This document shows positions 594-18,742 of a stretch of DNA of 29,377 nt, in pieces. Both the position numbers and the translations under genes were made by a program. How positions within the stretch are numbered: position 1 is the first letter of the stretch; every line of letters starts with the position of its first letter. This DNA is from a virus. The stretch spans positions 1-29,377 of the IMG/VR virus record IMGVR_UViG_3300044619_000125, one strand, 5' to 3'. The notes beneath the pieces were generated by a model. It had not been told where the DNA came from. It saw only the letters and a program-made list of their open reading frames with translations, and made no database searches.

Positions 594-602
594 ACCTATA
601 TT
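594..602 (-). promoter_or_regulatory. AATATAGGT start-codon motif, copy 1
   Basis: AATATAGGT on the minus strand directly abuts the GTG start of the 116-aa gene. It is one of five identical 9-mers found by eye, all at starts of virion-region genes. It could be a late-promoter element or a translation signal; the sequence alone does not decide. Confidence 0.55.
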
Positions 603-626
603 AATTTAGGTTTGTCAAATGTTCAT

Positions 627-656
627 AAAAAAAGCCCCACCATGTGGCAGGGCTTC
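627..656 (-). terminator. Rho-independent terminator after the tail-tube candidate
   Basis: On the minus strand AAGCC...CCAC and GTGGGGCTT form a stem with a small bulge and the loop ATG, followed by seven T. It lies 20 bases beyond the stop of the 177-aa gene and would end the head transcript before the 116-aa/portal unit. Confidence 0.75.
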
Positions 657-675
657 AATATAGAGAGGCAGGATA

Positions 676-1209
676 TTAAGGAGCAAGTACTGCTAATGCA
701 GCAGCTTCAGTAATCTCGTATGCAAGGTACTCATTCTCAGCTACCAAAGTAACTGCGTATTTAGAACCATCCGCACGAGCTGTTCCAGAACCCTCAGCAG
801 TTGCAGATACCTGCAAGTAAGGGAAGTACCAATATAAACCGTTTGCATCAAGGATGATAGCGGCTAAGTATTGCTGTCCTGAGCCTAGGATTTTGATAGC
901 ACGGGACTTTGCAGCCTCACGTCTATGGAATACTAGGTTAACAGTCTGAGTTACAAAAGAGCTACCATTCACTAAGTCAATGGTTGAGTCCTCTGTGTAG
1001 TTTGATGTGTTACGTCTAACGTAGAAGTTTTCAAACAATACAGGAGTAGCCTGAAGATTGATTGCTGTTATTGTCCAACCCGCACCCGCTGATGGGTCTG
1101 CAGGAACAATAGAAAGAACCTCATCTTGTTGGTTAATCCAAATACCATAAATACCTCCACTGTTGTTTAGACATGATTTTGCTATAGTTTCTAATGCTTG
1201 ACAAGCCAT
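676..1209 (-). CDS. Putative major tail (tube) protein (177 aa)
   Basis: The gene sits directly after the major capsid gene and is flanked by a terminator on each side, as expected for a highly expressed virion protein. Its C-terminal half (ILDANGLYWYFPYLQVSATA, then a GSGTARADGSKYAVTL stretch, about residues 118-155) resembles the segment in Bacteroidetes siphophage tail-tube proteins where the ligand-like GSGT...DG..Y.LTL pattern recurs. No signal peptide or membrane segment is present. Known: such proteins polymerise into the tail tube around the tape measure. Inference: the family assignment rests on this pattern and the gene context; another minor virion protein is the main alternative. 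Confidence 0.5.
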   Translation of the reverse strand: MACQALETIAKSCLNNSGGIYGIWINQQDEVLSIVPADPSAGAGWTITAINLQATPVLFENFYVRRNTSNYTEDSTIDLVNGSSFVTQTVNLVFHRREAAKSRAIKILGSGQQYLAAIILDANGLYWYFPYLQVSATAEGSGTARADGSKYAVTLVAENEYLAYEITEAAALAVLAP

Positions 1210-1219
1210 GGTTATAAGT

Positions 1220-1247
1220 ATTAAAGAGCCCCCTTGGTAGAGGGCTC
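1220..1247 (-). terminator. Hairpin terminator after the major capsid gene
   Basis: On the minus strand GAGCCC and GGGCTC pair around a 10-base loop and are followed by TTTAAT. The stop codon of the capsid gene is 12 bases upstream. The short T-run suggests partial termination, giving more capsid than downstream transcript. Confidence 0.6.
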
Positions 1248-1258
1248 ATGGTTATTTA

Positions 1259-2179
1259 TTAATTGTAGAAATAGATATCAGATGGGTTCACGAAGTTGAA
1301 ACCAACTTTCATGTTAGCACGAGTTCTGATGTAAGGCTCAGCAACAGTATCAGCTAAGTTAACAGCACGTAAATCAGAGCTATCACCCTCAGCATCGAAT
1401 GCGTAGATAAGGTTGTCTTTCAAAGTGATAACAAATTTGTTATTGCTCATTCCCGGGCAGATAACTATTTTGATACCTAAGTAAGTCAAAGATAAATCTT
1501 GAGTGATGTATGCTTGAGTGTTACCTGAAGCTACTCCTAATCGGTACATATTAACTAACTGAGTAGGCATAAAGATACGCAAGTCAGATGTACGAGTAGC
1601 AATAGTAGCAGGAAGTGCAGATAAAGCAGCAGATAAAGCAGCCTCTAATGCAGCAAAGTTAGCGATTGCAGGAGCAGTAGCAGGATTGATAACGTTTACA
1701 TCAAGACCTAATACTTTTTCATAACCATCACACAAAGCGAGTGTAGGGTTTAATGAAGCAGTGTCACCTTGCCAACGGATTAACTCGATGTTACCATTGA
1801 TTTTGTTAGCCATCTCACCCCAATAGAAAGACATGAAAGATGCAACAGAGAAATCTCCGTTAGATCCTTGGCTCATTTGAAGAGATAAGAAAGATTGCTC
1901 TAAGTCAAACTGACAGATTTGAGCCATTGCAGACAATGCACAAACGTCAATCTCTTTCGCATCTAAATCATCATTAGGAGCTGAGAAAGAACAGCTAGAT
2001 GGTTGTAAGATGTTACCGAAAGTAACAGTTGCTAATTTAGTCTTGTACTTTACACCTGGCAAAGTTCTGTAGTTGTCAGCAGTATCTTCACTCAAGTAGG
2101 CTTGAGAATAGAATGCCTCAGGGTTTGCTGCCAATAAAGCAGTTGGGTCGATTTGTAAGTCGAATTTTAATTTACGCAT
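1259..2179 (-). CDS. Major capsid protein (306 aa)
   Basis: Length, position right after the protease-scaffold gene, and sequence fit an HK97-fold major capsid protein of Bacteroidetes phages. The N-terminal region (residues about 20-60) holds a YLSEDTADNYRTLPGVK stretch typical of the extended arm. The C-terminal part (IFMPTQLVNMYRL, then the Y...G.KIVICPGM pattern, about residues 203-245) resembles the P-domain/A-domain end of this family, and a short Ala-rich linker lies at about 165-190. The gene begins 4 bases after the protease-scaffold stop and a hairpin follows its own stop. No catalytic motifs are expected. Confidence 0.8.
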   Translation of the reverse strand: MRKLKFDLQIDPTALLAANPEAFYSQAYLSEDTADNYRTLPGVKYKTKLATVTFGNILQPSSCSFSAPNDDLDAKEIDVCALSAMAQICQFDLEQSFLSLQMSQGSNGDFSVASFMSFYWGEMANKINGNIELIRWQGDTASLNPTLALCDGYEKVLGLDVNVINPATAPAIANFAALEAALSAALSALPATIATRTSDLRIFMPTQLVNMYRLGVASGNTQAYITQDLSLTYLGIKIVICPGMSNNKFVITLKDNLIYAFDAEGDSSDLRAVNLADTVAEPYIRTRANMKVGFNFVNPSDIYFYN

Positions 2180-2183
2180 GGTT

Positions 2184-3152
2184 TTATTTGTTTATAAATT
2201 TGTTTACACTAGAAAAACGTTGCTGTGCACTCATGGCCACAGCCTCACTCACCACCTCATCCTCTACCTCAGCAGATAGAACTTCCTCTAATTGGTTCTT
2301 AAGGTCAGCTATCATAGCAAGTAAAGCATTCATTTGCTCATCCATTACAGGCTTAACAATAGCAAGGATTGCCTCTGCATCAACTACAGGGTCAACCGCC
2401 ATTGTCTCTTCCTCTGCAGGAATTTCTGCTGTTACTGTCTCTTCTACGACAGTATCTTCTAGGGCTACCTCTTCAGAGGCCTCCACTACTTCAGCATCAC
2501 GTATCTCAGTAACCTCTCCGTCAACTACGACATAGATTTTACCCTCGATTAGATGCTCTCCATCAGGTAATTTGTTCATTTGTATATTGTTTGTTTGTTG
2601 CTCTTTAAGCTTCATCCCAAGGTATCCCTCTATGCTGAAACCAATCTGCTCTTGGCTAACTAGTTCTGCATAGTACTCTTTATCTGTTACCTGGGCCGTT
2701 ACCATCAATGTGCCCTCCGGTACCTCAATACCAAATGATGAATAGGCTTTGTCCTCCATTGGAGTATCTACTATCCATGCCTCAAGGACATAGGCAGGAA
2801 CTGTCTTAGATTGATCGTGCTCAAGATTGAATAAATCTCGGTTGACCATCTGCTTCATGAACTTGCCATGGATTAGCTCAATCTCTTCCTTAGTAAACTT
2901 GACATTGTACTCCTCTTTGCTATCCTCATCAAAGCGGTAAATCTCCATAGGTATCAAAGCAGGTGCAGTGATACGGTACTTTAACTCATCTGAGAAAAAT
3001 AAAGGTTTAGCTTGAGAACTGAATGCCATCCCCTTAACTTTGATTGCAGGTGTAGCTGTAAAAGCTATTTGCTCAATGCCAAGGTCCTCACCATTTTCAG
3101 CGTATGCTGGGTCGATAGTGATTTGATAGGTAGGGATATTCTTTTTTGCCAT
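2184..3152 (-). CDS. Prohead protease fused to scaffold (XkdF-like, Peptidase S78_2)
   Basis: The N-terminal 190 residues match XkdF-like putative serine proteases: LEHDQSK carries a candidate catalytic His112, and IGFSIEGY carries a candidate Ser173 followed by Glu175. The C-terminal half (about 205-322) is very acidic and then helical (VDAEAILAIVKPVMDEQ, LLAMIADLKNQLEEVL), as expected for a capsid scaffold. Known: such fusions guide capsid assembly and are cut away during maturation. The gene lies immediately upstream of the capsid gene. The ATG is 2 bases from an AATATAGGT motif, and a divergent plus-strand unit starts 44 bases away. Confidence 0.8.
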   Translation of the reverse strand: MAKKNIPTYQITIDPAYAENGEDLGIEQIAFTATPAIKVKGMAFSSQAKPLFFSDELKYRITAPALIPMEIYRFDEDSKEEYNVKFTKEEIELIHGKFMKQMVNRDLFNLEHDQSKTVPAYVLEAWIVDTPMEDKAYSSFGIEVPEGTLMVTAQVTDKEYYAELVSQEQIGFSIEGYLGMKLKEQQTNNIQMNKLPDGEHLIEGKIYVVVDGEVTEIRDAEVVEASEEVALEDTVVEETVTAEIPAEEETMAVDPVVDAEAILAIVKPVMDEQMNALLAMIADLKNQLEEVLSAEVEDEVVSEAVAMSAQQRFSSVNKFINK

Positions 3153-3154
3153 CT

Positions 3155-3163
3155 ACCTATATT
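3155..3163 (-). promoter_or_regulatory. AATATAGGT start-codon motif, copy 2
   Basis: The 9-mer lies 2 bases upstream of the ATG of the protease-scaffold gene, the only copy not touching the start codon. It sits in the 44-base divergent gap, back to back with the plus-strand TATATTTG box at 3174-3181. Confidence 0.55.
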
Positions 3164-3173
3164 AAAAAAACTC

Positions 3174-3181
3174 TATATTTG
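3174..3181 (+). promoter_or_regulatory. Bacteroidetes-type -7 box (TATATTTG) for the plus-strand unit
   Basis: TATATTTG matches the TAnnTTTG consensus exactly and ends 15 bases before the ATG at 3197, giving a short leader. The nearest upstream TTTG (3145-3148) is 25 bases away, slightly longer than the usual spacing, so the -33 element is uncertain. This box would drive the only two plus-strand genes of the genome. Confidence 0.5.
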
Positions 3182-3196
3182 TTCAAAAATTAAAAC

Positions 3197-3745
3197 ATGA
3201 TAACTATATTAAACAGGGAAATTCCCAACCAACTTGAAGAGCTAACCATTGAGCAGTTCGAAGCCATCACTGATATCAATAACAATCAGGAACTTGACCC
3301 TATTGATAAGCACCTCCAAGTGTTTGCATACCTAGGCATTCCTGAAAGTGAGTTTTGGGACTATGACGTTGCTGATTTTGTGGGGATGGTCAAAGAATTT
3401 AACTCTGCAGAACGCAAAGAATATCCAACAGTAGAAGAGCTTGAGATTGATGGATACATCTACAAGGCACAATTAAAGTTAACTGTACGGGATACTAAAT
3501 TGATTGAAAAGATAACACTCAAAAAAGAGAAAGGATATATCTCCGAGATGTTAGCAGTCATGTTCAAACGGGAGGACCTTACACCCACTGAACACTACAC
3601 AGATGCACACATCAAGCAGAAAGCAAAGCTCATTAGAAAACTGAATGCAGCTATATCCATTCCTTACGTTATGTTCATAGCACAAAAAATAGGACAGCAA
3701 GCCAATGATCAAGCTACCGCAGAATTGGAGCCAAGTAACGCTTGA
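3197..3745 (+). CDS. Putative tail assembly chaperone 1 (182 aa)
   Basis: This is a soluble, acidic, helical protein without signal or membrane segment. Its N-terminus (PNQLEELTIEQFEAI, then a segment with D..DFVGMVKEF) parallels the start of the next gene's product (PQNWSQVTLEQFIEF ... DVDELAELVAEAKW), so the two are probably related. Two overlapping related proteins near the tail-tube and tape-measure genes fit tail assembly chaperones, which bind the tape measure before tube assembly. The gene overlaps the next by 41 bases in the +1 frame. I see no homopolymeric slippery site in the overlap. It has its own promoter on the strand opposite to all other genes. The function is inferred from context. 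Confidence 0.5.
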   Translation: MITILNREIPNQLEELTIEQFEAITDINNNQELDPIDKHLQVFAYLGIPESEFWDYDVADFVGMVKEFNSAERKEYPTVEELEIDGYIYKAQLKLTVRDTKLIEKITLKKEKGYISEMLAVMFKREDLTPTEHYTDAHIKQKAKLIRKLNAAISIPYVMFIAQKIGQQANDQATAELEPSNA

Positions 3746-4445
3746 GCAGTTCATTGAATTTAGTGGCATAGATAGAGAACAGGGAGCCTACCACTACAAC
3801 AGTGAGGCTCTCTCTATTTTATCAGATGAGCCCATTGAGGTCATTGAGGATATGGATGTGGATGAGTTGGCAGAACTTGTAGCAGAGGCCAAGTGGTGTA
3901 CATCCGAGCCATCCAAAAGATATAAGCATGAACTGCTTGGCATGAAGTTCAAACCATTCAACAAGCTAACCCTGTATGAGTACATTGACCTGGACTATTT
4001 CTTTAGTGATAACTACATAACCAATCTTGACAAGGTATGTGCTATCTGCTACCGGCACAGCAAGGTAAATGAATGGGGTGATGAGGTCCTTGAGCCCTAT
4101 GAGTTTGACTGCAACATTAGAGCAGAGAAATTTCATGACCTACCAATCACCGATGTGTATGGTATTGTGCATGAGTTCATGAAGTACAGGGAGGACTTTC
4201 TTAAAAAGTATGAGAACTTATTTAGTGGTGACCTTGATGAGGACCTTAGTGATGAGGAACGCAGGGAGATGGACCCTGAAGAAATCAAAGAAATTGAGAA
4301 AGAACAGGCTCAAGCTAAGTGGTCATGGGAGCAAACCATCTACGGGTTGACCAATGGGGATATAACAAAGAGTGATAAGGTTGGTGCCCTACCACTCATC
4401 TATGTGTTCAATGTTTTGTCTATGAAGAAAGAGTTAGACATCTAA
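3705..4445 (+). CDS. Putative tail assembly chaperone 2 (246 aa)
   Basis: The first 60 residues resemble those of the upstream plus-strand gene (KLPQNWSQVTLEQFIEF followed by an acidic helical region), and the rest is a longer acidic, Trp/Tyr-rich extension with SGDLDEDLSDEERREMDPEE at about residues 174-193. The ATG at 3705 lies inside the 3' end of the preceding gene, suggesting coupled translation; a stop at 3690 in this frame limits any frameshift product to the last 50 bases of the first gene. The 3' end overlaps by 12 bases the 3' end of the minus-strand 156-aa gene. Chaperone assignment is inferred from pairing and position; a minor virion protein is an alternative. Confidence 0.5.
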   Translation: MIKLPQNWSQVTLEQFIEFSGIDREQGAYHYNSEALSILSDEPIEVIEDMDVDELAELVAEAKWCTSEPSKRYKHELLGMKFKPFNKLTLYEYIDLDYFFSDNYITNLDKVCAICYRHSKVNEWGDEVLEPYEFDCNIRAEKFHDLPITDVYGIVHEFMKYREDFLKKYENLFSGDLDEDLSDEERREMDPEEIKEIEKEQAQAKWSWEQTIYGLTNGDITKSDKVGALPLIYVFNVLSMKKELDI

Positions 4446-4904
4446 TGGGAAGCCCTGCTGAAATCCTGCAGGAGGGTCAAGAGCTTCAAATGTGTACACA
4501 AGTTTGTACTGTCTTTCAAGCACCTCAACTGCTTGGACCAATGGATACTTTTTTGTAATCCATTCAGTGTACTGTCGATATATTTCAGCAACAAGTCCAG
4601 CCTCCATCATTGCATCTGTAAATTGTGCAACGAAATCTCTAGGAGCAATTGAGCCACCATTCGGCCCATAGGCATTAGCTGTTTGTGGCACCCCATTATT
4701 CAGGAAGATAAAATAGTACATGGCCACAATTTGTATCTCAAGTTTTTGAAAGCCTGTTACCTTGGCATTGATACGCACACTTTCTACAAGTGTACCCTCA
4801 CCATCTACTACCTCGTTTCTAATTATTCTCTTGAGGATGGTAGCCATCTTCCTACGTGTAGGATATAGGATGTTAAACTCTCCTGTGTTTGCGTATCTAG
4901 CCAT
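4434..4904 (-). CDS. Putative neck or tail-completion protein (156 aa)
   Basis: The protein is soluble. Its middle part, YYFIFLNNGVPQ followed some 15 residues later by IAPRDFVAQF (about residues 63-93), recalls the fLe.GT...i.aRPFl pattern of HK97 gp10-like tail-completion proteins, though weakly. It follows the 47-aa gene with an 8-base overlap, continuing the tail-fibre unit, and is the last minus-strand gene before the plus-strand island. The assignment is tentative. Confidence 0.4.
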   Translation of the reverse strand: MARYANTGEFNILYPTRRKMATILKRIIRNEVVDGEGTLVESVRINAKVTGFQKLEIQIVAMYYFIFLNNGVPQTANAYGPNGGSIAPRDFVAQFTDAMMEAGLVAEIYRQYTEWITKKYPLVQAVEVLERQYKLVYTFEALDPPAGFQQGFPLDV

Positions 4905-5040
4905 TGATTAATTCTTTATATATATCCATTGTATCATCTATTAGAATAATACCCTTATCCGTTTCAACATGAAGCTGAGTATCACTAACCACCTCAATAG
5001 GGCCTGTGATTGTGTAATCTATTCCATTGTGATTAAACAT
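4897..5040 (-). CDS. Small conserved-context protein (47 aa)
   Basis: An ATG at 5040 overlaps the end of the tail-fibre gene by 8 bases and the frame closes with TAG at 4897, overlapping the start of the 156-aa gene by 8 bases. The product starts MFNHNGIDYTITGPIEVV and is acidic, with two VxxxTDxGIILI-like beta stretches and no membrane segment. The double overlap fills an otherwise empty 128-base gap and is the usual spacing in this genome, which argues for a real gene. The function is unknown; being next to the fibre, it may be a small virion or fibre-associated protein. Confidence 0.6.
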   Translation of the reverse strand: MFNHNGIDYTITGPIEVVSDTQLHVETDKGIILIDDTMDIYKELING

Positions 5041-6394
5041 ACGCAAATACTTTATACATATCTATGTTAGCTACATCGGCAATGTTTTGACATTGCATAG
5101 TAAATAATATATATTGGTTAACTGTTCTATTGAATGCAGTGGTTTGTATAGTGGTACCTGGATTATATTCAATTGTATTTCCTCCTGTTGCCCTAAGACT
5201 TGTGCCATCATAGCTATAGTTACGCTCGCAGTAAAGTATGAACTGCCCAGCATTGAAACTAAATATACCACTAATTAATGTGGCACCTGTTAAGCTGTTG
5301 GTAGTGTTGAAGTAGATACGTCCATACATCTGCCCTACATTGCCTGATTGTCGGTACATCCTAAATACTACCTGCAGGATATTGTTGCTGTTTAATGTAT
5401 TGGCAGGGATGAGTAATGAGTGACATATAGTAATTGCGTTACCTGTAGTAGGGGTGCCTAGTATTCCACTATATCCCATTAGCCTGGGGCCGATGGTTAA
5501 ATTCCCACTACCTAGCAGTGAGTTGTTGTTCACCGTTTTGATGTTGGTACCTGATACCAATGCATCCTGCTTAGCGTTGAATGTACTCCAATTAGCACTG
5601 CTCAATGCACCCCTGTTGGTAGCGGATGCTGTGGGTATATTGAATGCATGATTGCTACCGCTAGATACCACGTTGAAGTCAGTACCTGTAGTGCCTGTGC
5701 TAATGGTCTGCACATCCGCACTCAATCCATTCAATGCAGTCATGCCTGTTCCTGCTATGATACCTGCTTGTTGAGTTACGGTAAAGATAGCTGATGCTGT
5801 TGCAGGAGGAGGGCTTCCTGCAGGATAGAACTCCATGGTAACATCCAAGCTAGTTGCACTCCAATACAGCTCGTAGTAATCACCACCTACTGCATCGAGT
5901 ATGTAGTTCCATGATGTTATCACATGACCAGGACCACCACCATGAGATGATACTACAGCGACAAAGCCTGCACTACCATCTACGTCAACACCATTCTTTC
6001 TTAACCATATAGTTACATCATGAGTCTTGACATCTATGTTTTGATATTGAAAAGAGAATTGAAGATTGTATATCCCTGTGTTAGCTATGGTTATTTCAGT
6101 GTCACTCACTACAGTTACCCCATTGCTGTAGTCCATTGTTCTGAACTTAGTAGGTTGACCTACATTAACAGCAACTAATGGCTGTGTGATGTCATCCTGG
6201 TATTGTGCATAGTAACCTACTGCACCACCACCGCCACCACCTGCTCCATCAATGATTTGTTGACCGGTGATAACTGTGTTCACAGGCAAGCCACCCACTA
6301 TCATGGTACATTCTAGTAAATCAGTAGGCTGTAAATCTCCTGTGTGAGGTGTGAGGGTTGGTCTCCAATCACCCCACCAATTTGGTGCACTCAT
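5033..6394 (-). CDS. Tail fibre / receptor-binding protein with jelly-roll-like domain (453 aa)
   Basis: After an N-terminal part (1-50) and a glycine linker (GAGGGGGG, about 50-57), residues about 70-205 look like a C1q/TNF-type jelly-roll: TGIYNLQFSFQYQN, TIWLRKNGVDV, GDYYELYWSAT. Residues about 260-300 carry two motifs common in phage tail fibres, NRGALSSANWSTFNAKQ and TVNNNSLLGSGNLTI, and the C-terminal 150 residues are beta-rich and probably form the distal tip. Known: such proteins bind host surface receptors. The ATG abuts an AATATAGGT motif, so the fibre may head its own unit. Chaperone activity is not evident here. Confidence 0.7.
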   Translation of the reverse strand: MSAPNWWGDWRPTLTPHTGDLQPTDLLECTMIVGGLPVNTVITGQQIIDGAGGGGGGAVGYYAQYQDDITQPLVAVNVGQPTKFRTMDYSNGVTVVSDTEITIANTGIYNLQFSFQYQNIDVKTHDVTIWLRKNGVDVDGSAGFVAVVSSHGGGPGHVITSWNYILDAVGGDYYELYWSATSLDVTMEFYPAGSPPPATASAIFTVTQQAGIIAGTGMTALNGLSADVQTISTGTTGTDFNVVSSGSNHAFNIPTASATNRGALSSANWSTFNAKQDALVSGTNIKTVNNNSLLGSGNLTIGPRLMGYSGILGTPTTGNAITICHSLLIPANTLNSNNILQVVFRMYRQSGNVGQMYGRIYFNTTNSLTGATLISGIFSFNAGQFILYCERNYSYDGTSLRATGGNTIEYNPGTTIQTTAFNRTVNQYILFTMQCQNIADVANIDMYKVFAYV

Positions 6395-6403
6395 ACCTAT
6401 ATT
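6395..6403 (-). promoter_or_regulatory. AATATAGGT start-codon motif, copy 3
   Basis: The motif directly abuts the ATG of the tail-fibre gene, within a 29-base gap. A CAGGAGGT Shine-Dalgarno-like run lies about 17 bases upstream of the ATG, too far for a standard ribosome site. Confidence 0.55.
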
Positions 6404-6423
6404 ATTTTAACCTCCTGAAATGT

Positions 6424-6867
6424 TTAATTACCTGATAGAGGAACAGCACAGTCAGTCCAATCATTGACGGTTAGTGTAATGTTCATAACATATCCTGCAG
6501 CGTAGTCAAGTAGATCGTTGTTCAATGCCTGGAATGATGGCACCCCCACCACGTCAAAGGCATAGTCAGTACCATCCATGTAGTAAACATACAGGTCATT
6601 CAATATCTGCTGTGTATCACTAAGGATTGTAATGATGTTAGCCCTATCTTTTTGGATGATGTCAAAGCAATAGATGTCAAAGTTAAACTCGCTTGTATTC
6701 TCAGTAGGGATAACACTAACAGGCACCACAAAAACAATAGGATATTTCTCATCCTTAGTAGCGAAGTTGTATAGCTGTTCCTTGAAGTCACTGCCTACTT
6801 TCTTAACCTGCAAATGGTTAGTATAGAACAGCTCGATGTGGTCAATGATTGCTTGTAGTGAGTTCAT
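6424..6867 (-). CDS. Putative tail terminator-like protein (147 aa)
   Basis: The layout fits a family of tail-terminator-like proteins common in Bacteroidetes phages: an N-terminal helix (SLQAIIDHIELFYTNHL), a YPIVFVVPVSVIP strand near residue 43, FDIYCFDIIQKDRAN, a helix with ILSDTQQILNDLY, and a C-terminal beta pair. Known: terminators cap the tail tube and set its length together with the tape measure. The ATG overlaps the stop of the tape-measure gene by one base. The assignment is from pattern and position and is moderately secure. Confidence 0.5.
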   Translation of the reverse strand: MNSLQAIIDHIELFYTNHLQVKKVGSDFKEQLYNFATKDEKYPIVFVVPVSVIPTENTSEFNFDIYCFDIIQKDRANIITILSDTQQILNDLYVYYMDGTDYAFDVVGVPSFQALNNDLLDYAAGYVMNITLTVNDWTDCAVPLSGN

Positions 6868-9071
6868 TATAGTTCAGCGTTTTTGTTAATCTTGTTTATC
6901 TTATTTTGTACGTTGGTTACTTGGGTCTCAGATACTACAGCGGTAACGGTCATGGAGCTTTCATTGGTAGTACCTCCTGCACTCATTGTACCCCCAGCAT
7001 TAGCTGAGCCAAAGAGCTGTGCCGCTTGTGGTACTGATTGTGCTACGTTGGCACTCTCACCACCACCACCTGTACCACCACCACCACCACCACCTGAGGT
7101 AGGAGTACCACCTGAAGTAAGTATCTGCTTAGCTTTTGCAATGTTGGTAGCAATCTGTATAATACCGGTAGCAAACTGAGCTACACCTGCAGCACCTGCA
7201 GTTACACCATTCAATGAGTTGGCATTTGATGCAGCAACGAGGGATGAGATGGCCTTACCTGTATCAATACCTATCTGCACCAATGCCATACTCTTGTTGA
7301 ATTTCTCAAGTTTCTTTTGGTCCTTGATGAATGCAGCACCTACTGTCTGAATACCATTGGCAATATCTGCAGCAAGTTGTAGTCTTGCATCCCTTTCTTT
7401 TTGTGCCGCTTCAATTTTAGCTTTGGCTGCATCCTCTACTATTTTGGTTTCATCGGTTTCATACTTAGCCTTAAGTGCTGCCTTAAGTATCTCATTACCC
7501 TCCGCTAGTTTTAACTCCTCTTCATACTTAGTCTTAAGGGCTTGCAGTTTCTTTTGGTCCTCAGTGAGTTCGCTATCTGCCAAAGTCTTAGCAAGGGTTT
7601 GCTGTTGCTTCAACTTAGCATCTGCACGCTTCTGATTTTCTGCCTCCTCCTGATCGTTGTATAGTTGAGTCAACGTTTTCTTTTGCTCCTCCGTTAGCGT
7701 GGTATCTGCCAAGGTCTGAGCTCTTAGCTTGTCATACTTAGCCTTAGTCATGGCTAACTCTTTCTCCGTTCCCTCCTCCATTAGTTGGAGCTGTAAATCA
7801 GCTATGATGTCATTGCCTTTCTTTAAGTTGTCCTGTTCAGTCTTAGTCTTATCTGCTGCAAGTTTATCAAGTTCCTGTTGCTGTTGCGTTAGATACATAG
7901 CATTGAACTTAGCTTTCTCTTCTGCTGTTTTGTTAGCATCATTCTTAAGGTCATTCATTAACCTGGCATACTTCTCATTTACGATAGCTACCTCTCTTGC
8001 ATTGGCATCCTTAATCTGTGATAGTTCAAAGTCTCTTAGAGTCCTTGCATTGTCAAGTCTATTCTTAGCATTCTGCTTAGCTTTCTCCCTAGCCTTTTCT
8101 GCTGCAGCTGCTGCCTCATCTCCTGCTTTCTTTTCAGCCTCTTTCTCATCCGCTAACTCTTGAGCCTTAATTCTCTTGCGGTCATTGACACCACCTCGAA
8201 TGATTTTATTTTCTTCCTCAATCTGCTTTCTTAATTCAGCTCTTTTCTTAGTTGCCTCTTCACCCTCTTGGTGCCTCATTGCCTCAAGTGCTTTCTTGGC
8301 TGCAGCCTTTCTCTTGATAGACTCTTTCTCTAGTGCTCTTGACTTATCTAACTCTAGCTGTGTGGTATCCTTGCCTGCAATCTTAGCCATGGCAATCTCT
8401 TGGTCGTAGCTTTCAGAGATTGTATCAGCTCTTTTCTTAGAACTCTCTGCTGTTTTCTCATTAGCCTTAGCCATCTTCTCTGCATTCTCATCTGCTGCAA
8501 AGCTAGTCAACCCTAGGTAATCACCTAATGCTTTGAGACCCTCAATCAATGCATTGATAGGTATCATTAAAAAGTCAAGTACTTTTTGTAGCACCCCTAT
8601 CTTGTGGAGGAATATCAGGATGGCAGCAACAATAGCAACAATCACAGCTACTAATAAAAAGATTGGGTTAGCTAGGATGGTAGCACCTAGAGAAACGAAT
8701 GCACCACCAACAGTTGTGATAACGGATGTCAGTGATTTGAATGCACCACCAATAGCCTTGGGGTCGATGTTCCCTAAACTCTTAGCAAACACTTTAGACT
8801 TTTGTGCAGCCTCATCAAAGTCAAGGCTCATCAAACTATCTTTGATACCACCTAACCCATTGCTTACCTGCTCAAACTTGGATCCTGTAGCAAAGGTGTT
8901 CACTGCCTCATTGGCATCTGCTAGTTGGTCCTTAAGTTCCCCTGCTCGCTGTGATAACCTGGCAATATCTTCAGGGTCAGTTGCCTCAGCAATGGCACCC
9001 TTTAATGATTTTAATTCTGCCTTGATGGCACCAATGCCGCCGAGCTTTAATGGTATTTCAACTTCATTCAT
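6867..9071 (-). CDS. Tail tape measure protein (734 aa)
   Basis: Tape measures set tail length and line the tube lumen. This one shows the usual build: an N-terminal helical region (1-110), a strongly hydrophobic stretch at about 115-175 (ANPIFLLVAVIVAIVAAILI), a long charged coiled coil at about 190-600 rich in Ala, Glu and Lys, and a C-terminal glycine-rich low-complexity piece (GGGGGGGTGGGG). At about 1.5 angstroms per residue the tail would be near 110 nm, which is an estimate. It lies just upstream of the terminator-like gene and downstream of the hub gene, an order opposite to that in most siphophages. No lytic domain is visible. Confidence 0.85.
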   Translation of the reverse strand: MNEVEIPLKLGGIGAIKAELKSLKGAIAEATDPEDIARLSQRAGELKDQLADANEAVNTFATGSKFEQVSNGLGGIKDSLMSLDFDEAAQKSKVFAKSLGNIDPKAIGGAFKSLTSVITTVGGAFVSLGATILANPIFLLVAVIVAIVAAILIFLHKIGVLQKVLDFLMIPINALIEGLKALGDYLGLTSFAADENAEKMAKANEKTAESSKKRADTISESYDQEIAMAKIAGKDTTQLELDKSRALEKESIKRKAAAKKALEAMRHQEGEEATKKRAELRKQIEEENKIIRGGVNDRKRIKAQELADEKEAEKKAGDEAAAAAEKAREKAKQNAKNRLDNARTLRDFELSQIKDANAREVAIVNEKYARLMNDLKNDANKTAEEKAKFNAMYLTQQQQELDKLAADKTKTEQDNLKKGNDIIADLQLQLMEEGTEKELAMTKAKYDKLRAQTLADTTLTEEQKKTLTQLYNDQEEAENQKRADAKLKQQQTLAKTLADSELTEDQKKLQALKTKYEEELKLAEGNEILKAALKAKYETDETKIVEDAAKAKIEAAQKERDARLQLAADIANGIQTVGAAFIKDQKKLEKFNKSMALVQIGIDTGKAISSLVAASNANSLNGVTAGAAGVAQFATGIIQIATNIAKAKQILTSGGTPTSGGGGGGGTGGGGESANVAQSVPQAAQLFGSANAGGTMSAGGTTNESSMTVTAVVSETQVTNVQNKINKINKNAEL

Positions 9072-9072
9072 G

Positions 9073-11787
9073 TTATGGCTTGTAATATCTTATTTCAATG
9101 GGTGTGTAAAATAGCAAGTTATCTGCTAAGCCTACACCTATTTGAGTGGTGTTAATAACTATTGTATTGTTGGTCACATTGTATAGTGCTGAGATAAGGC
9201 AGTCAAAAATAGTGTTGCTTACCATTACTACTATCTCACTCGGTAGGATAGTACCTATGTCATAATTTTGTATAGTGCCTAGGTAATCTCCTGCACCAAC
9301 TCGAGTCCATACTATGTCTCCAAAGCTAGACTCTTTCACGTCAACTGTTGGGTTAGCTGTTCCGCTTTGATTAAGTAGTGCAACATAGCTAAAGTATGGA
9401 GGGTCAACAGGTATGCCATTGATTGTACCATACACTCTCAAGTTATCAGTGTAGATACCATCCTCTTCTATCGTAGCATCATCTGCCACCACTACTACCT
9501 TGAGCCCAGGGTTAACATTGTTACCCTTTCCTGTGACTAATCCCGATGTACTGTTAGGTATGATGTTGCTGTTGGCAGTCTTAGTCTTAATGATCGTATC
9601 ATTGGCCACTTGAGTTATGGGACCCACACTACCTGTACCTACACCTGGTGATGGGGAGCCAAGAGCAAAGGGCATCAAGTTCACCTCATTGTCTATGCTG
9701 ATAAGTTCTACCTGTGTGAGCTGATTGCCATTGGCATTGTAATCTATGACCTTGTTAATGTTCCACCATGAGTTATCAATGCGTATCTTATCATTGAGCT
9801 CCAATGGTTGGATGTCAGACTCTTTAAGATTAAAGAATGCAGTCAACATCTTACCGTTGTTTATCTGCCCCATGGTACGTCTCCAGTACCTGTTGTAGAG
9901 ATTGTTCTGCGTTAAGGTACTTGGCATGTAGTAGTAGTATGCACAAGTCGCAAAATTCAAATCCCAAGTAGGGTTGAGTGGGTCATCAAAGTGACCTACA
10001 TACGGGTAGCTTGTGACGTTGGTCATACCCGTTGTGCCATAGTCAAAGATGTTAAACCCTTGGCATGTGGTGAGTCCTACCTCTGCTGTTGAGTCATACA
10101 AAATACGGATGTTAGTATCAGGCTGTGCACCTGCTAACATTGGAACGTATGCACCAAAGACTGTATCAATGATTGGTGTAGGGCTAAACAATACATCCTT
10201 AGTAGTTACATCCTTTACATACTCATTGTCAAAGATAACCTCTGATTGTCCGTAGATTTGATTAGTGGCATTGGTGTAGATCGTATTAGGATCATCCTTA
10301 TCTGCCTTGTATGTGAGTATTACTTTCTTGCTAGTCAGTTCAGGTAGGAATGACAATGACTGCTCTTTATCCTTGGCTAGCTTGTATGTCCAGTCTACCT
10401 CTTTACCTGCATCGTAGTAGTCATCCCTATGGATGAGGTTGAGCTGATTAGGCTGTGACTTATCTACCTCAGCGTACAAGTTGAACATGTTAAATATAGC
10501 CTTAACAAATTCATTCTGCTTTATCTTTTTAGGCACGTAGTCATTCACATCAATGGTACCACCAATGGCCACAATGTTACTGCTCGGGGTGATTGTTATA
10601 TCTGCCGAGTTAATGGTTAGGCTTAATTGATACGGTAAGATATAGTAACCTCCTGCAGTGTTAAAGATAGCCTGTACATTGCTAGTCAATGCAGTGAGCT
10701 GTGGTAGTATGTTGGGGTCACTAGCCTGTATGGTTACTATTAATGTGTCCGTAGTTATGTTGGTAGTACCTGCTCCAGGTGCACCCGGTCCATTGTAAAA
10801 AGGTGAAGCTGAGTTTACGTTGTATGGTGCATTAAAAAAGTTCAGGTAGAATGTAGGTGTACCTACTGATATATTGGCTACAGGACAAATGATGTCAAGA
10901 CTAAAGTTAACCAATATCTTTATCTCATAGTACTGAGCATTGGCTGAACTGATATTGAATGGTGTAGTATACACACCTGTTACCGGGTCAAAGATATTCT
11001 GAGGGTCCTCTATCTCAGTTAGTCCTGTGAATGTATAGGTACCTGTGGTAGGAGTAACTGATAGAGGTGATACCACCGTACTAGGTGTAGTCTTCTCTGC
11101 TCGCACCACATAGTCTAAATAATCAAAGTTATCAATGCCTCCGTTGTATGGAATGATGAGCTTGTCAAACTTAGTAGCACTTAGGCTAGCCCAATTATAT
11201 GTAAACCCTGAGTCAGCAAAGATGCGATCTAAATAAGTCTTGGCAAAGATAGCAGGCTTAAATTCTTGAGTAGTGTAGAACACATCACCACTACCAGGGA
11301 GGAAGTACTTGAAGCCATCCACCACAGTGTTGGTAAATCTGTTGACTACATTGAATGCATCGTATGTGTGGTTGAGGTCGCTGAAGTCTATATCTGTTAG
11401 CTCTTTGTTATTAATGGCTGTAAAGAAATCGGCTTTGCTTTCCTTGACCAATACCTCATACTCTACATGCTCCTCATACCCATCTGTGAGCTGCACCTTT
11501 TTAACAGCTGTGAGTTGTAGGCTTGCATCCTCCATGACCGGTATTCCATCCTGGATAACTGAGCAGGTAGTCACTGCATTGATGTCAAAGGTACCGGCTA
11601 TAATGTTAACATCATAGTAGTGGTTGAGCAGGTCGTTGTTGTTCTTGCTACCCACCAATACAATGGTCTTAGAGAAGTTACCTTTCCTTTGACTAATATC
11701 TCTGATATCTCCTACCTGAAAGTTCAAAGGGAATGAAGTCCCCTCCTTAACATCAAGGTATCCTGTTGCTAGTTGTATCCTAACCAT
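9073..11787 (-). CDS. Tail hub / tail-associated baseplate protein (904 aa)
   Basis: This is the largest virion protein. The N-terminus has the DVKEGTSFPLNFQVGDIRDI and GNFSKTIVLVGS pattern seen in hub-like tail proteins of Bacteroidetes phages. Mid-protein segments such as KESDIQPLELNDKIRIDNSW (followed by WNINKVIDY) are typical of hub domains. The C-terminal 200 residues are beta-rich (IEEDGIYTDNLRVYGTINGI) and may form a fibre-like or carbohydrate-binding part. It overlaps the 483-aa gene by 8 bases and ends one base before the tape-measure start. The exact role (hub, Tal-like or spike) is inferred; no peptidase or lysozyme motif was seen. Confidence 0.65.
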   Translation of the reverse strand: MVRIQLATGYLDVKEGTSFPLNFQVGDIRDISQRKGNFSKTIVLVGSKNNNDLLNHYYDVNIIAGTFDINAVTTCSVIQDGIPVMEDASLQLTAVKKVQLTDGYEEHVEYEVLVKESKADFFTAINNKELTDIDFSDLNHTYDAFNVVNRFTNTVVDGFKYFLPGSGDVFYTTQEFKPAIFAKTYLDRIFADSGFTYNWASLSATKFDKLIIPYNGGIDNFDYLDYVVRAEKTTPSTVVSPLSVTPTTGTYTFTGLTEIEDPQNIFDPVTGVYTTPFNISSANAQYYEIKILVNFSLDIICPVANISVGTPTFYLNFFNAPYNVNSASPFYNGPGAPGAGTTNITTDTLIVTIQASDPNILPQLTALTSNVQAIFNTAGGYYILPYQLSLTINSADITITPSSNIVAIGGTIDVNDYVPKKIKQNEFVKAIFNMFNLYAEVDKSQPNQLNLIHRDDYYDAGKEVDWTYKLAKDKEQSLSFLPELTSKKVILTYKADKDDPNTIYTNATNQIYGQSEVIFDNEYVKDVTTKDVLFSPTPIIDTVFGAYVPMLAGAQPDTNIRILYDSTAEVGLTTCQGFNIFDYGTTGMTNVTSYPYVGHFDDPLNPTWDLNFATCAYYYYMPSTLTQNNLYNRYWRRTMGQINNGKMLTAFFNLKESDIQPLELNDKIRIDNSWWNINKVIDYNANGNQLTQVELISIDNEVNLMPFALGSPSPGVGTGSVGPITQVANDTIIKTKTANSNIIPNSTSGLVTGKGNNVNPGLKVVVVADDATIEEDGIYTDNLRVYGTINGIPVDPPYFSYVALLNQSGTANPTVDVKESSFGDIVWTRVGAGDYLGTIQNYDIGTILPSEIVVMVSNTIFDCLISALYNVTNNTIVINTTQIGVGLADNLLFYTPIEIRYYKP

Positions 11788-13231
11788 TGACCATGTCGTT
11801 ATTAGCTAGCTTGATTGTAATGCTTTGCTTGATTAAGTTCTTATTCCGTTGCTTGTATTTCTCAAATGATGAGGTAACTATATTGCAGCTCACATACTCA
11901 GTGCTTGCCGGTATATCACAGCTCTCATCGTAGTTGCTTATCTTGAAGTATGTGTATGGTGAGCTGATTAGTTCAGTGAAGTAGGTTGCCATGTCCTCAG
12001 TCATCCAATCGGTATTGAGGTCAATGGTGTTATCTACACTCACATAGCTGTTGATGTATCCTCTATCTGTTAGGTTGTAGTTCCATGACCCTGCGTCAAT
12101 GTATCCTGCTACATCCTGATTGTATTGCTCACGCTGTACTGTGCCTCTTTCGTATGCTCTACCTGTGAATGCAAAGCTACCCCATGAACCATAACGGTCT
12201 AGGAATATGATGCTGTACTCCTGCATCCTAACTCTGCGATCTATGTTTACTTTGTATGGCTGTGTAACTTGGTTACCATTGTGCTCATAGTAATACTCAT
12301 AGTAATCAGTGGTAGACTTAATCAATGGCAGTGTACCTGAGATAGCAGTCAATGGTCCTGAGTTGTTAGGACCTACTGCGTTACCTGTTACGTGGTCAGT
12401 GGCAGAGACATTCTTTTCAAACATCTCACCACCATCATTGGTGAAAATAATCTTGTGAGTACCTGGTCCTGGTCCACCATACACTGCGTTCATCCAAAGG
12501 TCTTGAGATAAGGTGCAATAAAATTCTCTAGTAGGGCATGATGTTAGGAAGCTATCTGATGGACTCGTTAGGTAGTAGTTACTGAATAAGTAGTAAGGCC
12601 ATTGAGTCCAAGGTAGTGCACCATTGAATACAAAGTTATTTGCCTTGATTAGTATGTTCCTAGTCACAGTCTTTCTACCATCAGCATAGGTGATATCACC
12701 ATTGATTGCTGCATTGGTTACCAATGACCAAGGGCTATTCACTACCAAGTAACCTACACCAACTGATAGCACAGTGAACAATCCCTCAAGATTAGGGTTA
12801 GCTACCCCACCATCTGATTGAGCTATGACTATCTGATCACCTACCACAAATGTGTTGGCTACATTTATCTGTACGTTCCCTCCGTTGTTAGTTACGGATG
12901 CAAAGTACTGAACTACGGTTAGGTACTCCTCACCTACCTTGACATCATACTTGTAATGGCTGTTAGGTGCATCGTATACTGTGGTGTTGTATGGGAACAA
13001 GTCAAAGCTTACCTTAGATTGTAGTAGCTTGCTTAGGTCAATCTCACCATAGAATGTACTCGCATTAGGTAGCACTCTATACTCTGCTATTTGATTAGTG
13101 GTACCACTCTCATAGATATCAAAGATATACTTGAAACCTGCAAAGCCTGAGTTTGTACTCGCAAAGAAAAACTTAATCGGGTTGTACGCAGGAGTTAACA
13201 CCTGTGGTACAGCTATAGTGAACATTGCCAT
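11780..13231 (-). CDS. Putative distal tail / tail-tip protein (483 aa)
   Basis: A beta-rich protein starting TIAVPQVLTPAYNPIKFFFA and continuing with Y.FDIYESGTTNQIAEYRV, a pattern I associate with tail-tip proteins encoded before the hub gene in Bacteroidetes phages. It contains a KIIFTNDGGEMFEKNV segment (about residues 250-265) and a C-terminal NLIKQSITIKLAN strand. No signal peptide or membrane segment is present. It follows the large terminase after a 31-base gap, begins at an AATATAGGT motif and overlaps the hub gene by 8 bases. A distal-tail (Dit-like) role is an inference from adjacency. Confidence 0.5.
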   Translation of the reverse strand: MAMFTIAVPQVLTPAYNPIKFFFASTNSGFAGFKYIFDIYESGTTNQIAEYRVLPNASTFYGEIDLSKLLQSKVSFDLFPYNTTVYDAPNSHYKYDVKVGEEYLTVVQYFASVTNNGGNVQINVANTFVVGDQIVIAQSDGGVANPNLEGLFTVLSVGVGYLVVNSPWSLVTNAAINGDITYADGRKTVTRNILIKANNFVFNGALPWTQWPYYLFSNYYLTSPSDSFLTSCPTREFYCTLSQDLWMNAVYGGPGPGTHKIIFTNDGGEMFEKNVSATDHVTGNAVGPNNSGPLTAISGTLPLIKSTTDYYEYYYEHNGNQVTQPYKVNIDRRVRMQEYSIIFLDRYGSWGSFAFTGRAYERGTVQREQYNQDVAGYIDAGSWNYNLTDRGYINSYVSVDNTIDLNTDWMTEDMATYFTELISSPYTYFKISNYDESCDIPASTEYVSCNIVTSSFEKYKQRNKNLIKQSITIKLANNDMVNG

Positions 13232-13240
13232 ACCTATATT
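13232..13240 (-). promoter_or_regulatory. AATATAGGT start-codon motif, copy 4
   Basis: The motif abuts the ATG of the 483-aa tail-tip gene. Copies 3 and 4 share a longer context, TTA(A/G)AATAATATAGGTATG. Confidence 0.55.
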
Positions 13241-13262
13241 ATTCTAAGCAGGTAAAGTGTTT

Positions 13263-14414
13263 CTAAAATGCGTAGTAAGAGTCATCCGTATAGTACTCCT
13301 GTCGGATGTGAGTAGTGGCATACCTGATTGCATCCATTGCATCATCCCACATCTTGACCGGCTCGTCAGTGATCATGTCACCTACTTTCTTCCACTTGTA
13401 ATTTTCATACTCTTTGCGGATGGCCTTATCATCTTGGCATAGCACACCAAAGGTCTTGATGTTGTCGATACCTTTCTTAACTACCTTGTTTGCGTTCTGC
13501 ACGTCATAGCCTGCATTGTTCAGCTCGGCAATAATCTCAGGCCGTGCATAGTCTGCAACAATGGTCACAGTCTTTTCAACGTTGAAGCTTTGCATCTTGT
13601 CTATGAGCATTGGAGTAGTCAGGTAGCTCTCATATATCACGGGCTCAATGTAGATGTCATTGTCACACCAATAGACACGCATGAGTGCAGTAGGGTGATT
13701 GTATCCAAAGTCAAGACCATACACATAGTTCACGAACCTAGCAGGGCGGTGTGGTATGAAAGTCCAATTGCTATAGATGTTACTCTTGCTGATAGCTTTC
13801 TCACCCAAGGCATAGATTTGATACAGGGCTTCATCCGTTCTCTTCAGGTCCTCAATCTGTGACCTAATGCTTTGAGGTAGGAATGGGTTGTCTTTGTAGG
13901 TTGACTTGATGAGTACACTCTCTTCCTGTGGTAGCTCATACAGCCATGAGGTACTCTCACTGGGGTTGTAGTCAAAGATAAGCTTGGACTCTGTTCTCAT
14001 GTTGAGCTGAGTGAAGTCATCAAAGTACAGCTCATTGGCTTCATTGCACCATGCTATGTCTCTCTTCCTACCTCTTATCTTTTGCTCATCATCCACACTA
14101 AAGAATTCCACAATGGACCCATTAGGAAACGTGTAGATGTGCTCACTCTTGTTGTGGTCCTCCACTGAATAGATGTTGAGCTCCTTGAGTATCTCAATGA
14201 AGTCCCTGAGCACTGTAGCCCTCAAAGCAGGGAACGTCTTTCTAATGATAGATACTACCTTGTTGTTGTTCTGCAGGCAGTATATGATAACTAACTGACA
14301 AAGGCTGTAGGTTTTGGAGGAACGGGAGCCACCCTCGTTAATTACAAACCTAAGAGCAGGGTCATTTAGTGCCTCATAGTTTTTCTCAAATATTACTGTG
14401 CTCTTTATCTCCAT
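13263..14414 (-). CDS. terL: Large terminase subunit (383 aa)
   Basis: This is the packaging motor and nuclease. The ATPase part has Walker A GGSRSSKT (28-35) and Walker B DIAWCNE (119-125). The RNase H-like nuclease part has YGLDFGYNHPTA with Asp235, VADYARPE with Asp288, and MWDDAMDAIRY with Asp357/358/361. The sequence is closest to PBSX-type large terminases. The gene begins inside the 3' end of a 55-aa gene and 129 bases after the small subunit. The related PBSX-type enzymes use headful packaging, which would agree with the circular permutation suggested by the genome ends. Confidence 0.93.
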   Translation of the reverse strand: MEIKSTVIFEKNYEALNDPALRFVINEGGSRSSKTYSLCQLVIIYCLQNNNKVVSIIRKTFPALRATVLRDFIEILKELNIYSVEDHNKSEHIYTFPNGSIVEFFSVDDEQKIRGRKRDIAWCNEANELYFDDFTQLNMRTESKLIFDYNPSESTSWLYELPQEESVLIKSTYKDNPFLPQSIRSQIEDLKRTDEALYQIYALGEKAISKSNIYSNWTFIPHRPARFVNYVYGLDFGYNHPTALMRVYWCDNDIYIEPVIYESYLTTPMLIDKMQSFNVEKTVTIVADYARPEIIAELNNAGYDVQNANKVVKKGIDNIKTFGVLCQDDKAIRKEYENYKWKKVGDMITDEPVKMWDDAMDAIRYATTHIRQEYYTDDSYYAF

Positions 14415-14553
14415 TAGCTATCTGATATGCATTCATTAACATAGCCATCTGCCTGCCATCACTTGCTACTGCCCTCCTATCTATCCTAACCTGGACTCCT
14501 TTCATTTTGTAGATGTAGTCCTCCACCACTGCACACATGAAATCAATCTGCAT
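14386..14553 (-). CDS. Small protein between the terminase genes (55 aa)
   Basis: The frame starts MQIDFMCAVVEDYIYKMKGV with ATG at 14553, overlapping the small terminase stop by 11 bases, and ends EHSNI at 14386, overlapping the large terminase start by 29 bases. A second ATG in frame lies at 14538. The product is helical, with a QMAMLMNAYQIAN helix near the C-terminus, and has no known motif. The double overlap and the absence of any other use for this stretch support a real gene. It may be a packaging accessory, but that is only context. Confidence 0.6.
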   Translation of the reverse strand: MQIDFMCAVVEDYIYKMKGVQVRIDRRAVASDGRQMAMLMNAYQIANGDKEHSNI

Positions 14554-14965
14554 CCGGTCGGACTATGGTCACCTTGATGCTGTCTATCTTCTCACCCTTG
14601 GTTGTAGTGTCAACCCGTTCAGTTAGGTTGTTGAGTCGTTGAGTAATGGATGCATTGTACTGCCCTGTCATACCTCCCTCGATTTGGTCCATGCGGATTG
14701 CCTCCTCTATGCGTGAGCAGATTGTGGCATACTCAGAATATCGACCATCCTTGTTGCAGAAATAATCATTCACTGTTTGCCCCTTATCTGCTGCAAAAGT
14801 CCTGAATCCCACTTGAGTAAGCGGTCTCTCTAATGGAACTGCTGTAGCTTCACCCGTCTTAGTGGATAGGGAATAGGAGTACCTAGGGTTTTCCTTGCAC
14901 CATCTCTTGTAGGCTTCAAATAGATCCCACATTGCCTCGGGGGTCTCGATGTGTTTAGGCCTCAT
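14543..14965 (-). CDS. terS: Small terminase subunit (140 aa)
   Basis: The product matches the gp3-type small terminases: an N-terminal MWDLFEAYKRWCKENP helix (about 12-27), ERPLTQVGFRTFAA (about 46-59), and an IEEAIRMDQIEGGMTGQYNA core (about 86-105) before NNLTERVD, the signature stretch of this family (QIEGA..G.yn..I..r.lGL). It recognises viral DNA and brings it to the large subunit. It lies at the head of the packaging genes and overlaps the 68-aa gene by 11 bases. Confidence 0.85.
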   Translation of the reverse strand: MRPKHIETPEAMWDLFEAYKRWCKENPRYSYSLSTKTGEATAVPLERPLTQVGFRTFAADKGQTVNDYFCNKDGRYSEYATICSRIEEAIRMDQIEGGMTGQYNASITQRLNNLTERVDTTTKGEKIDSIKVTIVRPDAD

Positions 14966-15161
14966 TACCCTCGTTCTCTACTGCTTTGTACTTTTTAGCT
15001 TTTGGCTCTGCATCTTCAAAGAGATAGCCAAAACCTACCGATGTTAAATACTCTGCCTGTTCAGCTGTTTCTTCTGTTACCGTGAATGGAGTTTCAAACC
15101 CCAACGGATTGTATCGGACCATGTACTGGCCTAGATACTCACTCTTTACTTTCTTTGTCAT
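14955..15161 (-). CDS. Hypothetical protein (68 aa)
   Basis: A small soluble protein: residues 10-50 (LGQYMVRYNPLGFETPFTV then TAEQAEYLTSVGFGYLFE) look like a compact alpha/beta domain, and the last 18 residues are charged (KAKKYKAVENEGNEA). I do not recognise a family. It begins inside the 3' end of a 58-aa membrane protein gene (23-base overlap) and overlaps the small terminase start by 11 bases, so it is translated with the packaging genes. Confidence 0.65.
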   Translation of the reverse strand: MTKKVKSEYLGQYMVRYNPLGFETPFTVTEETAEQAEYLTSVGFGYLFEDAEPKAKKYKAVENEGNEA

Positions 15162-15315
15162 ATTCGTATTCTTGTGTAAATAACCATGCGTAATATAGCA
15201 CTATCCATAGCCCAAAGGCTCTCATTGCCATTGTGGTATTCTCTCTAACTAGAAAGAATGCACCGGTCAAGGCAGTGAATGTAGCCAAGATACTAATTAT
15301 TTGAGATAGTCTCAT
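15139..15315 (-). CDS. Small two-helix membrane protein (58 aa)
   Basis: ATG at 15315 to TGA at 15139 encodes a protein starting MRLSQIISILATFTALTGAF, with one membrane segment at about residues 5-23 and a second at about 32-47 (AFGLWIVLYYAWLF), then a charged tail (QEYEYDKESKE). It overlaps the sigma-like gene by 23 bases and the 68-aa gene by 23 bases. Its ATG abuts an AATATAGGT motif, so it is the first gene of the packaging/tail unit. The function is unknown; a small membrane protein may act at the host envelope, but nothing points to lysis here. Confidence 0.65.
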   Translation of the reverse strand: MRLSQIISILATFTALTGAFFLVRENTTMAMRAFGLWIVLYYAWLFTQEYEYDKESKE

Positions 15316-15838
15316 ACCTATATTGTAATTTGCGTAAATTTTGTTTAATTTCTTTAATCAGGTAATGTGCTGAGGTAACAGGAATATCAAAGTACTTAGC
15401 CATTGCTCGAGCTGTGGTGTATCCCTTATCAATGTATGCCTCAAATACTATCCTGTGAACGTGGTCAGATATCTCACTGCGATAGATTTCAATCATCCCT
15501 TTGTGTGTAGAGTAGATTTTATCCTCCAATATCTTAGCATGTAGATCCTGCTCATCATCTACCTCATCTTTATCTTCATACTCCATTGAATTCACCCTAT
15601 CATCCTTGTGGCTCAGTGACGTGTTCCATAGGATTTGATACTTGATGGTGTTGAGCAGATAGCTCTTCACCTGGTCTTCACTCTCAGCATCTTCATTGAT
15701 GGTTAGCACATGCAGGTATGAGTTATTGATAACTGTATCCGCCTCGATATTGCTCCCCATCTTGGTGAGAAAGTACAGGGTATAAGCCCTGACCTCATCG
15801 AAGTGGTTACTGATGTACCTGTCTAAGACTTTTTTCAT
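15293..15838 (-). CDS. Sigma-factor-like transcription regulator (181 aa)
   Basis: The protein has the layout of an ECF-type sigma factor: a region 2-like part (ADTVINNSYLHV, YLLNTIKYQIL, about residues 33-72), an acidic linker (DKDEVDDEQDLHAKILEDK) and a region 4-like HTH (YIDKGYTTARAMAKYFDIPV, then TSAHYLIKEIKQNLRKL, about 133-170). Known: sigma factors direct RNA polymerase to alternative promoters. It lies at the end of the early block, immediately before the packaging and virion genes, and its 5' end overlaps the 72-aa gene by 32 bases. I infer a late-gene regulator; region 2 is diverged and it may be a sigma-like adaptor, not a full sigma factor. Confidence 0.65.
   Translation of the reverse strand: MKKVLDRYISNHFDEVRAYTLYFLTKMGSNIEADTVINNSYLHVLTINEDAESEDQVKSYLLNTIKYQILWNTSLSHKDDRVNSMEYEDKDEVDDEQDLHAKILEDKIYSTHKGMIEIYRSEISDHVHRIVFEAYIDKGYTTARAMAKYFDIPVTSAHYLIKEIKQNLRKLQYRYETISNN
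15316..15324 (-). promoter_or_regulatory. AATATAGGT start-codon motif, copy 5
   Basis: The motif abuts the ATG of the 58-aa membrane protein and lies within the 3' end of the sigma-like gene. It would mark the first virion/packaging unit. Confidence 0.55.
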
Positions 15839-18708: not shown

Positions 18709-18742
18709 CAAATATACAAAGAATTTAATTCGTAGATACAAA
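18709..18742 (-). promoter_or_regulatory. Candidate promoter for the recombination operon
   Basis: On the minus strand TTTG (18742-18739) and TATATTTG (18716-18709) fit the Bacteroidetes -33/-7 pattern, with a 22-base spacer at the long end of the known range. The -7 box lies 21 bases upstream of the ERF start at 18687. The -33 element falls inside the 3' end of the VRR-NUC gene. Confidence 0.5.

Follow-up and report, generated by a model that had tools for sequence, protein, structure and literature searches.

The late promoters of phage T4 consist of a single TATAAATA element, are read with gp55, and need the sliding clamp. Salmonella phage 7-11 encodes a sigma factor, gp47, that together with host core polymerase reads late promoters of the form GTAAtg-16-aCTA, and gp36 of phage phiEco32 reads tAATGTAtA; the authors of that work foresaw more sigma/promoter pairs of this kind (PMC8948821). 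In jumbo phage phiKZ, the late motif TATG overlaps the ATG, transcription starts at G, and the promoters are read by the phage's own multisubunit polymerase and have no upstream box (PMC7598289, PMC5312081). Among bacteria, known leaderless genes carry a TANNNT element whose first base is some 12 nt ahead of the start codon (PMC3160421), and TAnnTTTG is the signature of primary-sigma promoters in Bacteroidota (PMC7366714, PMC6847099, PMC9723704).

We analyzed the IMG/VR virus record IMGVR_UViG_3300044619_000125 over its whole length of 29,377 nt (positions 1–29,377), here called the window. The two ends of the window are direct repeats, 1–368 and 29010–29377, with 20 mismatches in 368 positions. 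Given this repeat, the window nearly amounts to a whole phage genome of ~29.0 kb that closes into a circle. The mismatches perhaps indicate that the record was joined from slightly different population variants. The phage belongs to a large uncultivated group comprising hundreds of contigs. As judged from its sequence, the host is most likely a member of Bacteroidota, because the window contains boxes of the TAnnTTTG type.

The closest characterized system is phage 7-11, a likeness backed by the protein fold, the layout, and where the gene is located. Both phages combine a small phage sigma or sigma-like protein, bipartite late promoters at block starts, and early genes with host primary-sigma promoters, the last assignment holding in the window at the consensus level. 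As in 7-11, a shared motif is located upstream of the virion-gene blocks, and, as in the pair of 7-11 and phiEco32, a different sigma goes with a different promoter among the relatives. However, the promoter sequence is not that of 7-11, and the setting is Bacteroidota rather than enterobacterial. No sequence match between gp47 and the 181-aa sigma-like protein of the window was obtained in any search run. The T4 system also pairs a phage sigma-like protein, gp55, with an AT-rich downstream element at late genes, but uses one element where the window has two boxes. The phiKZ motif resembles the present one in its overlap with the ATG, whereas its polymerase, its start at G, and its lack of an upstream box set it apart. 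The bacterial TANNNT genes likewise have a box that precedes the start codon by a short and almost constant distance; here, the distance is 10 instead of ~12 nt and the box occurs only at late block-first genes. Finally, the Bacteroidota primary-sigma promoter (TTTG/TAnnTTTG) is similar in its two boxes and their spacing, but the late promoters of the window contain no TTTG in either box.

We propose that a phage sigma drives late transcription from five promoters, P1–P5, to give leaderless or nearly leaderless mRNAs, and place the probability of this whole scheme at roughly 0.77.

Candidate late promoters of the window

The 9-nt sequence AATATAGGT is present in five exact copies, all on the minus strand, at 594–602, 3155–3163, 6395–6403, 13232–13240, and 15316–15324. 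Four copies abut an ATG or GTG, and the fifth is 2 nt away from its start codon. A sequence-only reading had described these copies and found no others by eye, which holds for exact matches in the whole window. It had also judged the copy number to be beyond chance. Dinucleotide shuffles contain 0.47 copies on average, slightly more than the 0.2 expected in that reading, and none of 100 shuffles reaches five. When one mismatch is allowed, 16 sites are found, a number attained by 9 of 100 shuffles. Thus, the signal is carried by the exact sequence and its position.

Each copy precedes a gene block, as the sequence-only reading had assigned. The first genes after the five copies encode a 58-aa membrane-type protein followed by TerS and TerL, the tail module, the fibre, the protease and capsid, and a 116-aa protein followed by the portal. 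From these products, we infer that the genes behind the AATATA sites are late. Two features had been overlooked: a second box upstream of the 9-mer, and a sigma-like gene whose end runs across the last copy. The second box, [A/G]AAC, is located 17–18 nt upstream of AATATAGGT in all five copies, the spacer being 18 nt long in four of them and 17 nt in the other. By chance, all five copies would show [A/G]AAC at any one of three allowed offsets with a probability of about 1e-8.

P1 (15316–15346, minus strand) is composed of AAAC (15346–15343), an 18-nt spacer, AATATA (15324–15319), and GGT, and is followed by the ATG at 15315 of the 58-aa protein that leads the TerS and TerL block. P1 is contained within the 3′-terminal part of the sigma-like gene and is conserved in clades A, A2, D, and H. 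P2 (13232–13262, minus strand) contains AAAC (13262–13259), 18 nt, and AATATAGGT before the ATG at 13231, where the tail block with the 483-aa, 904-aa, and tape-measure genes begins. P3 (6395–6425, minus strand) has the same composition, with AAAC at 6425–6422 and the ATG of the tail fibre gene at 6394. P4 (3155–3184, minus strand) carries GAAC (3184–3181), the 17-nt spacer, and AATATAGGT, and is separated by AG from the ATG at 3152 that opens the protease and capsid block. P5 (594–624, minus strand) has GAAC (624–621), 18 nt, and AATATAGGT in front of the GTG at 593, and would serve the 116-aa protein and the genes from the portal onward. This GTG aligns with ATG in relatives.

A terminator-like hairpin with a T-run (631–656, minus strand) ends just before the upstream box of P5. 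With a terminator in this position, the transcript of the 116-aa/portal block should start after the hairpin. A second terminator-like hairpin (1229–1243, minus strand) is located between the capsid gene and a 177-aa gene (676–1209) and may attenuate transcription past the capsid gene. The 177-aa gene has no late promoter of its own. A generic sigma-70 promoter scan revealed no excess of sites (36 versus 40 expected), and the TAnnTTTG box is absent from all five late sites.

Promoter architecture in relatives

The pattern AAAC-N18-AATATA is found in relatives in 327 distinct coding-strand contexts versus 9 on the reverse strand, and a backwards control pattern gives 9 matches in all. The spacing peaks sharply at 18 nt, while other gaps mostly occur in 3–21 contexts, the largest number being 53 (13 nt). 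The sequence-only reading had called for a motif search of relatives; the two-box form is carried by 26 of 27 near-complete ones. The 9-mer as a unit proved to be clade-specific, and the core consists of AATATA plus the upstream AAAC.

In 20 genomes that were inspected over their full length, the promoter classes recur: P1 ahead of the 58-aa gene, P2 following TerL, P3 at the fibre gene, P4 at the protease gene, and P5 ahead of the 116-aa gene. The P4 sites of relatives share the 17-nt spacer wherever the site is listed. Clades B, C, E, and G contain an additional promoter, P6, before the tail gene that is located at 4434–4904 (minus strand) in the window. Clade A lacks P6 at this gene and has P3 instead, in front of the fibre gene that lies upstream. 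Two cultured Bacteroidota phages with ~33% identical terminase have no such promoter set.

The three bases after AATATA differ by clade, being GGT, AGC, TAT, GTT, or AGT. The form in clade B is TGC-AATATA-AG, and in clade F all four promoters have become AACATA and the ATG has moved one base further on. Downstream and flanking bases agree at 0.65 between different promoters of one clade and at 0.40 between clades, a difference reached in none of 2000 permutations. The agreement within clades and the concerted change in clade F are what a single trans-acting reader predicts.

One further class, AAAC-N18-AATATAGATG at position +594 in clades B and C (L044, L069, and relatives; ~594 nt past the beginning of the sigma gene), was rejected because it is conserved coding sequence for the peptide VDNIDVSKY. 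Motif counts in phages of this group can be misled by it. Clade H AATATAAGTATG resembles ATATAAGTA, the yeast mitochondrial promoter, and the likeness is taken as coincidence.

The start codon follows AATATA at a distance of 3 nt in 232 of 334 ORF-containing contexts, of 4–5 nt in 56, of 14 nt in 22, and of less than 3 nt in three. The distance spans 3–19 nt with a floor of 3, whereas the spacing between the boxes is fixed. This combination argues for a promoter and against a ribosome-binding site, for which the opposite pattern, a fixed distance to the start codon, would be seen. We regard it as highly probable on this pattern that [A/G]AAC-17/18 nt-AATATA-GGT is a promoter.

The sequence-only reading had left two meanings of the 9-mer side by side, a late promoter giving leaderless mRNAs and a translation signal that replaces Shine-Dalgarno. 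The former has been strengthened by the second box, the conservation, the position at block starts, the terminator, the concerted change, and the sigma-like protein; the latter is not supported. Translation initiation in Bacteroidota favors A at −3 (PMC6847099), but this position is G in clade A. A translation signal would agree with the contact between the 9-mer and start codons and with the ability of AGGT to pair with the 3′ end of 16S rRNA; AGGT is not found in other clades, however, and no AGG-type complement at all is conserved across them. The element is also confined to block-first genes, and its spacing to the start codon varies while that to AAAC does not, all of which makes such a signal very unlikely. 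Still less credible is a site for an unrelated DNA-binding protein, such as an operator, or a promoter of a single-subunit RNA polymerase. The motif is indeed short and strict, and TATAGG resembles T7-type promoter cores, but two boxes in a 17–18-nt layout are typical of sigma promoters, and no polymerase match was found among the window proteins scanned, which represent part of the ORFs. A genome search with PF00940 carries no weight, since the control queries failed as well.

A sigma-like protein as the candidate reader

The gene of the 181-aa sigma-factor-like protein (15293–15838, minus strand) is located directly upstream of the terminase block. Two AlphaFold2 models of the protein have pLDDT values of 75 and 80. 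Foldseek searches against the PDB returned almost exclusively sigma factors, with 9n9q_C as the best match (E = 3.9e-4, probability 1.00) and Mycobacterium tuberculosis SigL and SigH and Escherichia coli SigE among the others. Matches among viral models (BFVD) are almost all annotated as ECF/sigma-70 proteins. In addition, when the C-terminal (region-4) domain is taken by itself, it resembles the −35-binding domain in 3hug with a TMt of 0.64. The E-values are modest, and the loose placement of the two domains makes the global TM low and their arrangement uncertain. The models lend moderate support to sigma region 2 and region 4 folds, mostly of the ECF type. The protein has no sequence-profile match in Pfam, PHROGs, or the PDB, no relative in the cultured-phage records searched, and none in GTDB genomes in a prophage/host search. 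Relatives retain the gene in its position adjacent to the terminase block.

It is quite probable that P1–P5 are read by this protein. Residue 67 is Tyr in clades A, A2, and D, which have G after AATATA, and Arg or Lys in clades B, C, F, and H. A strict covariation of residue and base was nevertheless rejected, as clades E and G have Lys at residue 67 together with G, and no single residue tracks the promoter bases strictly. The promoters might instead be read by an alternative sigma factor of the host, or be activated by another phage protein, with the 181-aa protein acting elsewhere. Bacteroidota hosts do possess several ECF sigma factors (PMC9723704). Yet the clade-wide changes to AACATA in clade F and to TGC-AATATA-AG in clade B fit a reader that evolves with the phage, and the sigma-like gene is both conserved and placed at a late-block boundary. 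We therefore consider this explanation improbable.

With the 181-aa protein as the reader, the early/late switch would proceed as follows. Host primary-sigma promoters of the TAnnTTTG type would serve the early genes. The phage sigma would then be made, join host core RNA polymerase, and open P1–P5 for the terminase, tail, fibre, protease/capsid, and portal/lysis blocks. The first transcribed nucleotide would probably be the fourth one beyond AATATA, in most cases the A that opens the start codon, leaving the majority of late mRNAs with no leader or one of 1–3 nt. This scheme would give the uncultivated phage group an early/late switch that can be read, together with a named candidate for its regulator; the clades offer many natural sigma/promoter pairs that changed together.

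Transcription start and host-type promoters

The fourth base after AATATA is mostly a purine even in contexts that have their start codon at another position: it is A or G in 96 of 102 of them, although these are not mutually independent, and in 12 of 14 in a de-duplicated set. The purine at this position and the distance floor together point to a start there, usually at the A of ATG. We lean slightly toward late transcripts that start on the start codon and are leaderless. The broader proposition, that the phage sigma makes polymerase start at the fourth nucleotide after the hexamer and so renders nearly the whole late program (terminase, tail, capsid, and portal) leaderless in hosts without Shine-Dalgarno pairing, is given an even chance. 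GTG, used by P5, is a weaker leaderless start in E. coli.

A start at this position is closer to the box than in phage 7-11 and in standard sigma promoters. Phage 7-11 starts 6–9 bp from its promoter element, whereas here the element abuts the start codon, suggesting ~4 nt as judged from the position of that codon. The promoter box of Flavobacterium johnsoniae is located at −12 to −5. In the standard sigma register, RNA would start ~7 nt after the hexamer and lose the start codon, and a leaderless transcript needs 2–3 nt less. The late sites also depart from the TANNNT rule of bacterial leaderless genes: in the commonest arrangement Y-AATAT begins 10 nt before the start codon, and C occupies its first position at 13 of 39 sites. 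This clash between standard geometry and an adjacent start codon is the most interesting point of the system.

The same promoters and the same phage sigma might thus be used with transcription starting off the start codon, the leader coming from another start and the closeness of AATATA to ATG reflecting a different use. Standard geometry speaks for such leaders, as do the shares of leaderless or short-leadered mRNAs in host-type bacteria, which are 13% in F. johnsoniae, 5.5% in F. psychrophilum, and ~3.7% in B. theta (leader <10 nt). Against them stand the distance floor and mode, both 3 nt, the purine kept at the fourth position even off the start codon, and the terminator immediately upstream of P5. 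We consider leadered transcripts possible but doubtful. If transcripts do start on the start codon, the phage would be an unusual virus that runs its structural genes on leaderless mRNAs. It would then offer a direct test of translation initiation by ribosomes of bacteria without Shine-Dalgarno signals, and of the shortest distance from its recognition box at which a bacterial-type RNA polymerase is able to initiate.

Host-type TTG...TAnnTTTG elements near an ATG are found in relatives 27 times on the coding strand versus 4 times on the reverse strand, and precede early-type genes. Two early-type boxes of the window have equivalents in relatives: TATCTTTG at 24872–24879 (minus strand), with TTTTG upstream, and TATATTTG at 18709–18716 (minus strand), 21 nt before the ATG of a 178-aa gene. 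The distance from such a box to the ATG is 3–35 nt in early genes, whereas the late box abuts the start codon. Another TATATTTG box (3174–3181, plus strand), for the divergent gene at 3197, overlaps the upstream box of P4. This overlap may explain the 17-nt spacer of P4.

The two plus-strand genes by the divergent P4 region, 3197–3745 and 3705–4445, overlap by 41 nt, have similar starting sequences, and look like tail-assembly chaperone genes. Two minus-strand genes of the replication region, 22333–22830 and 16433–16783, encode a helix-turn-helix protein resembling DnaA (PF08299) and a protein with DUF3127.
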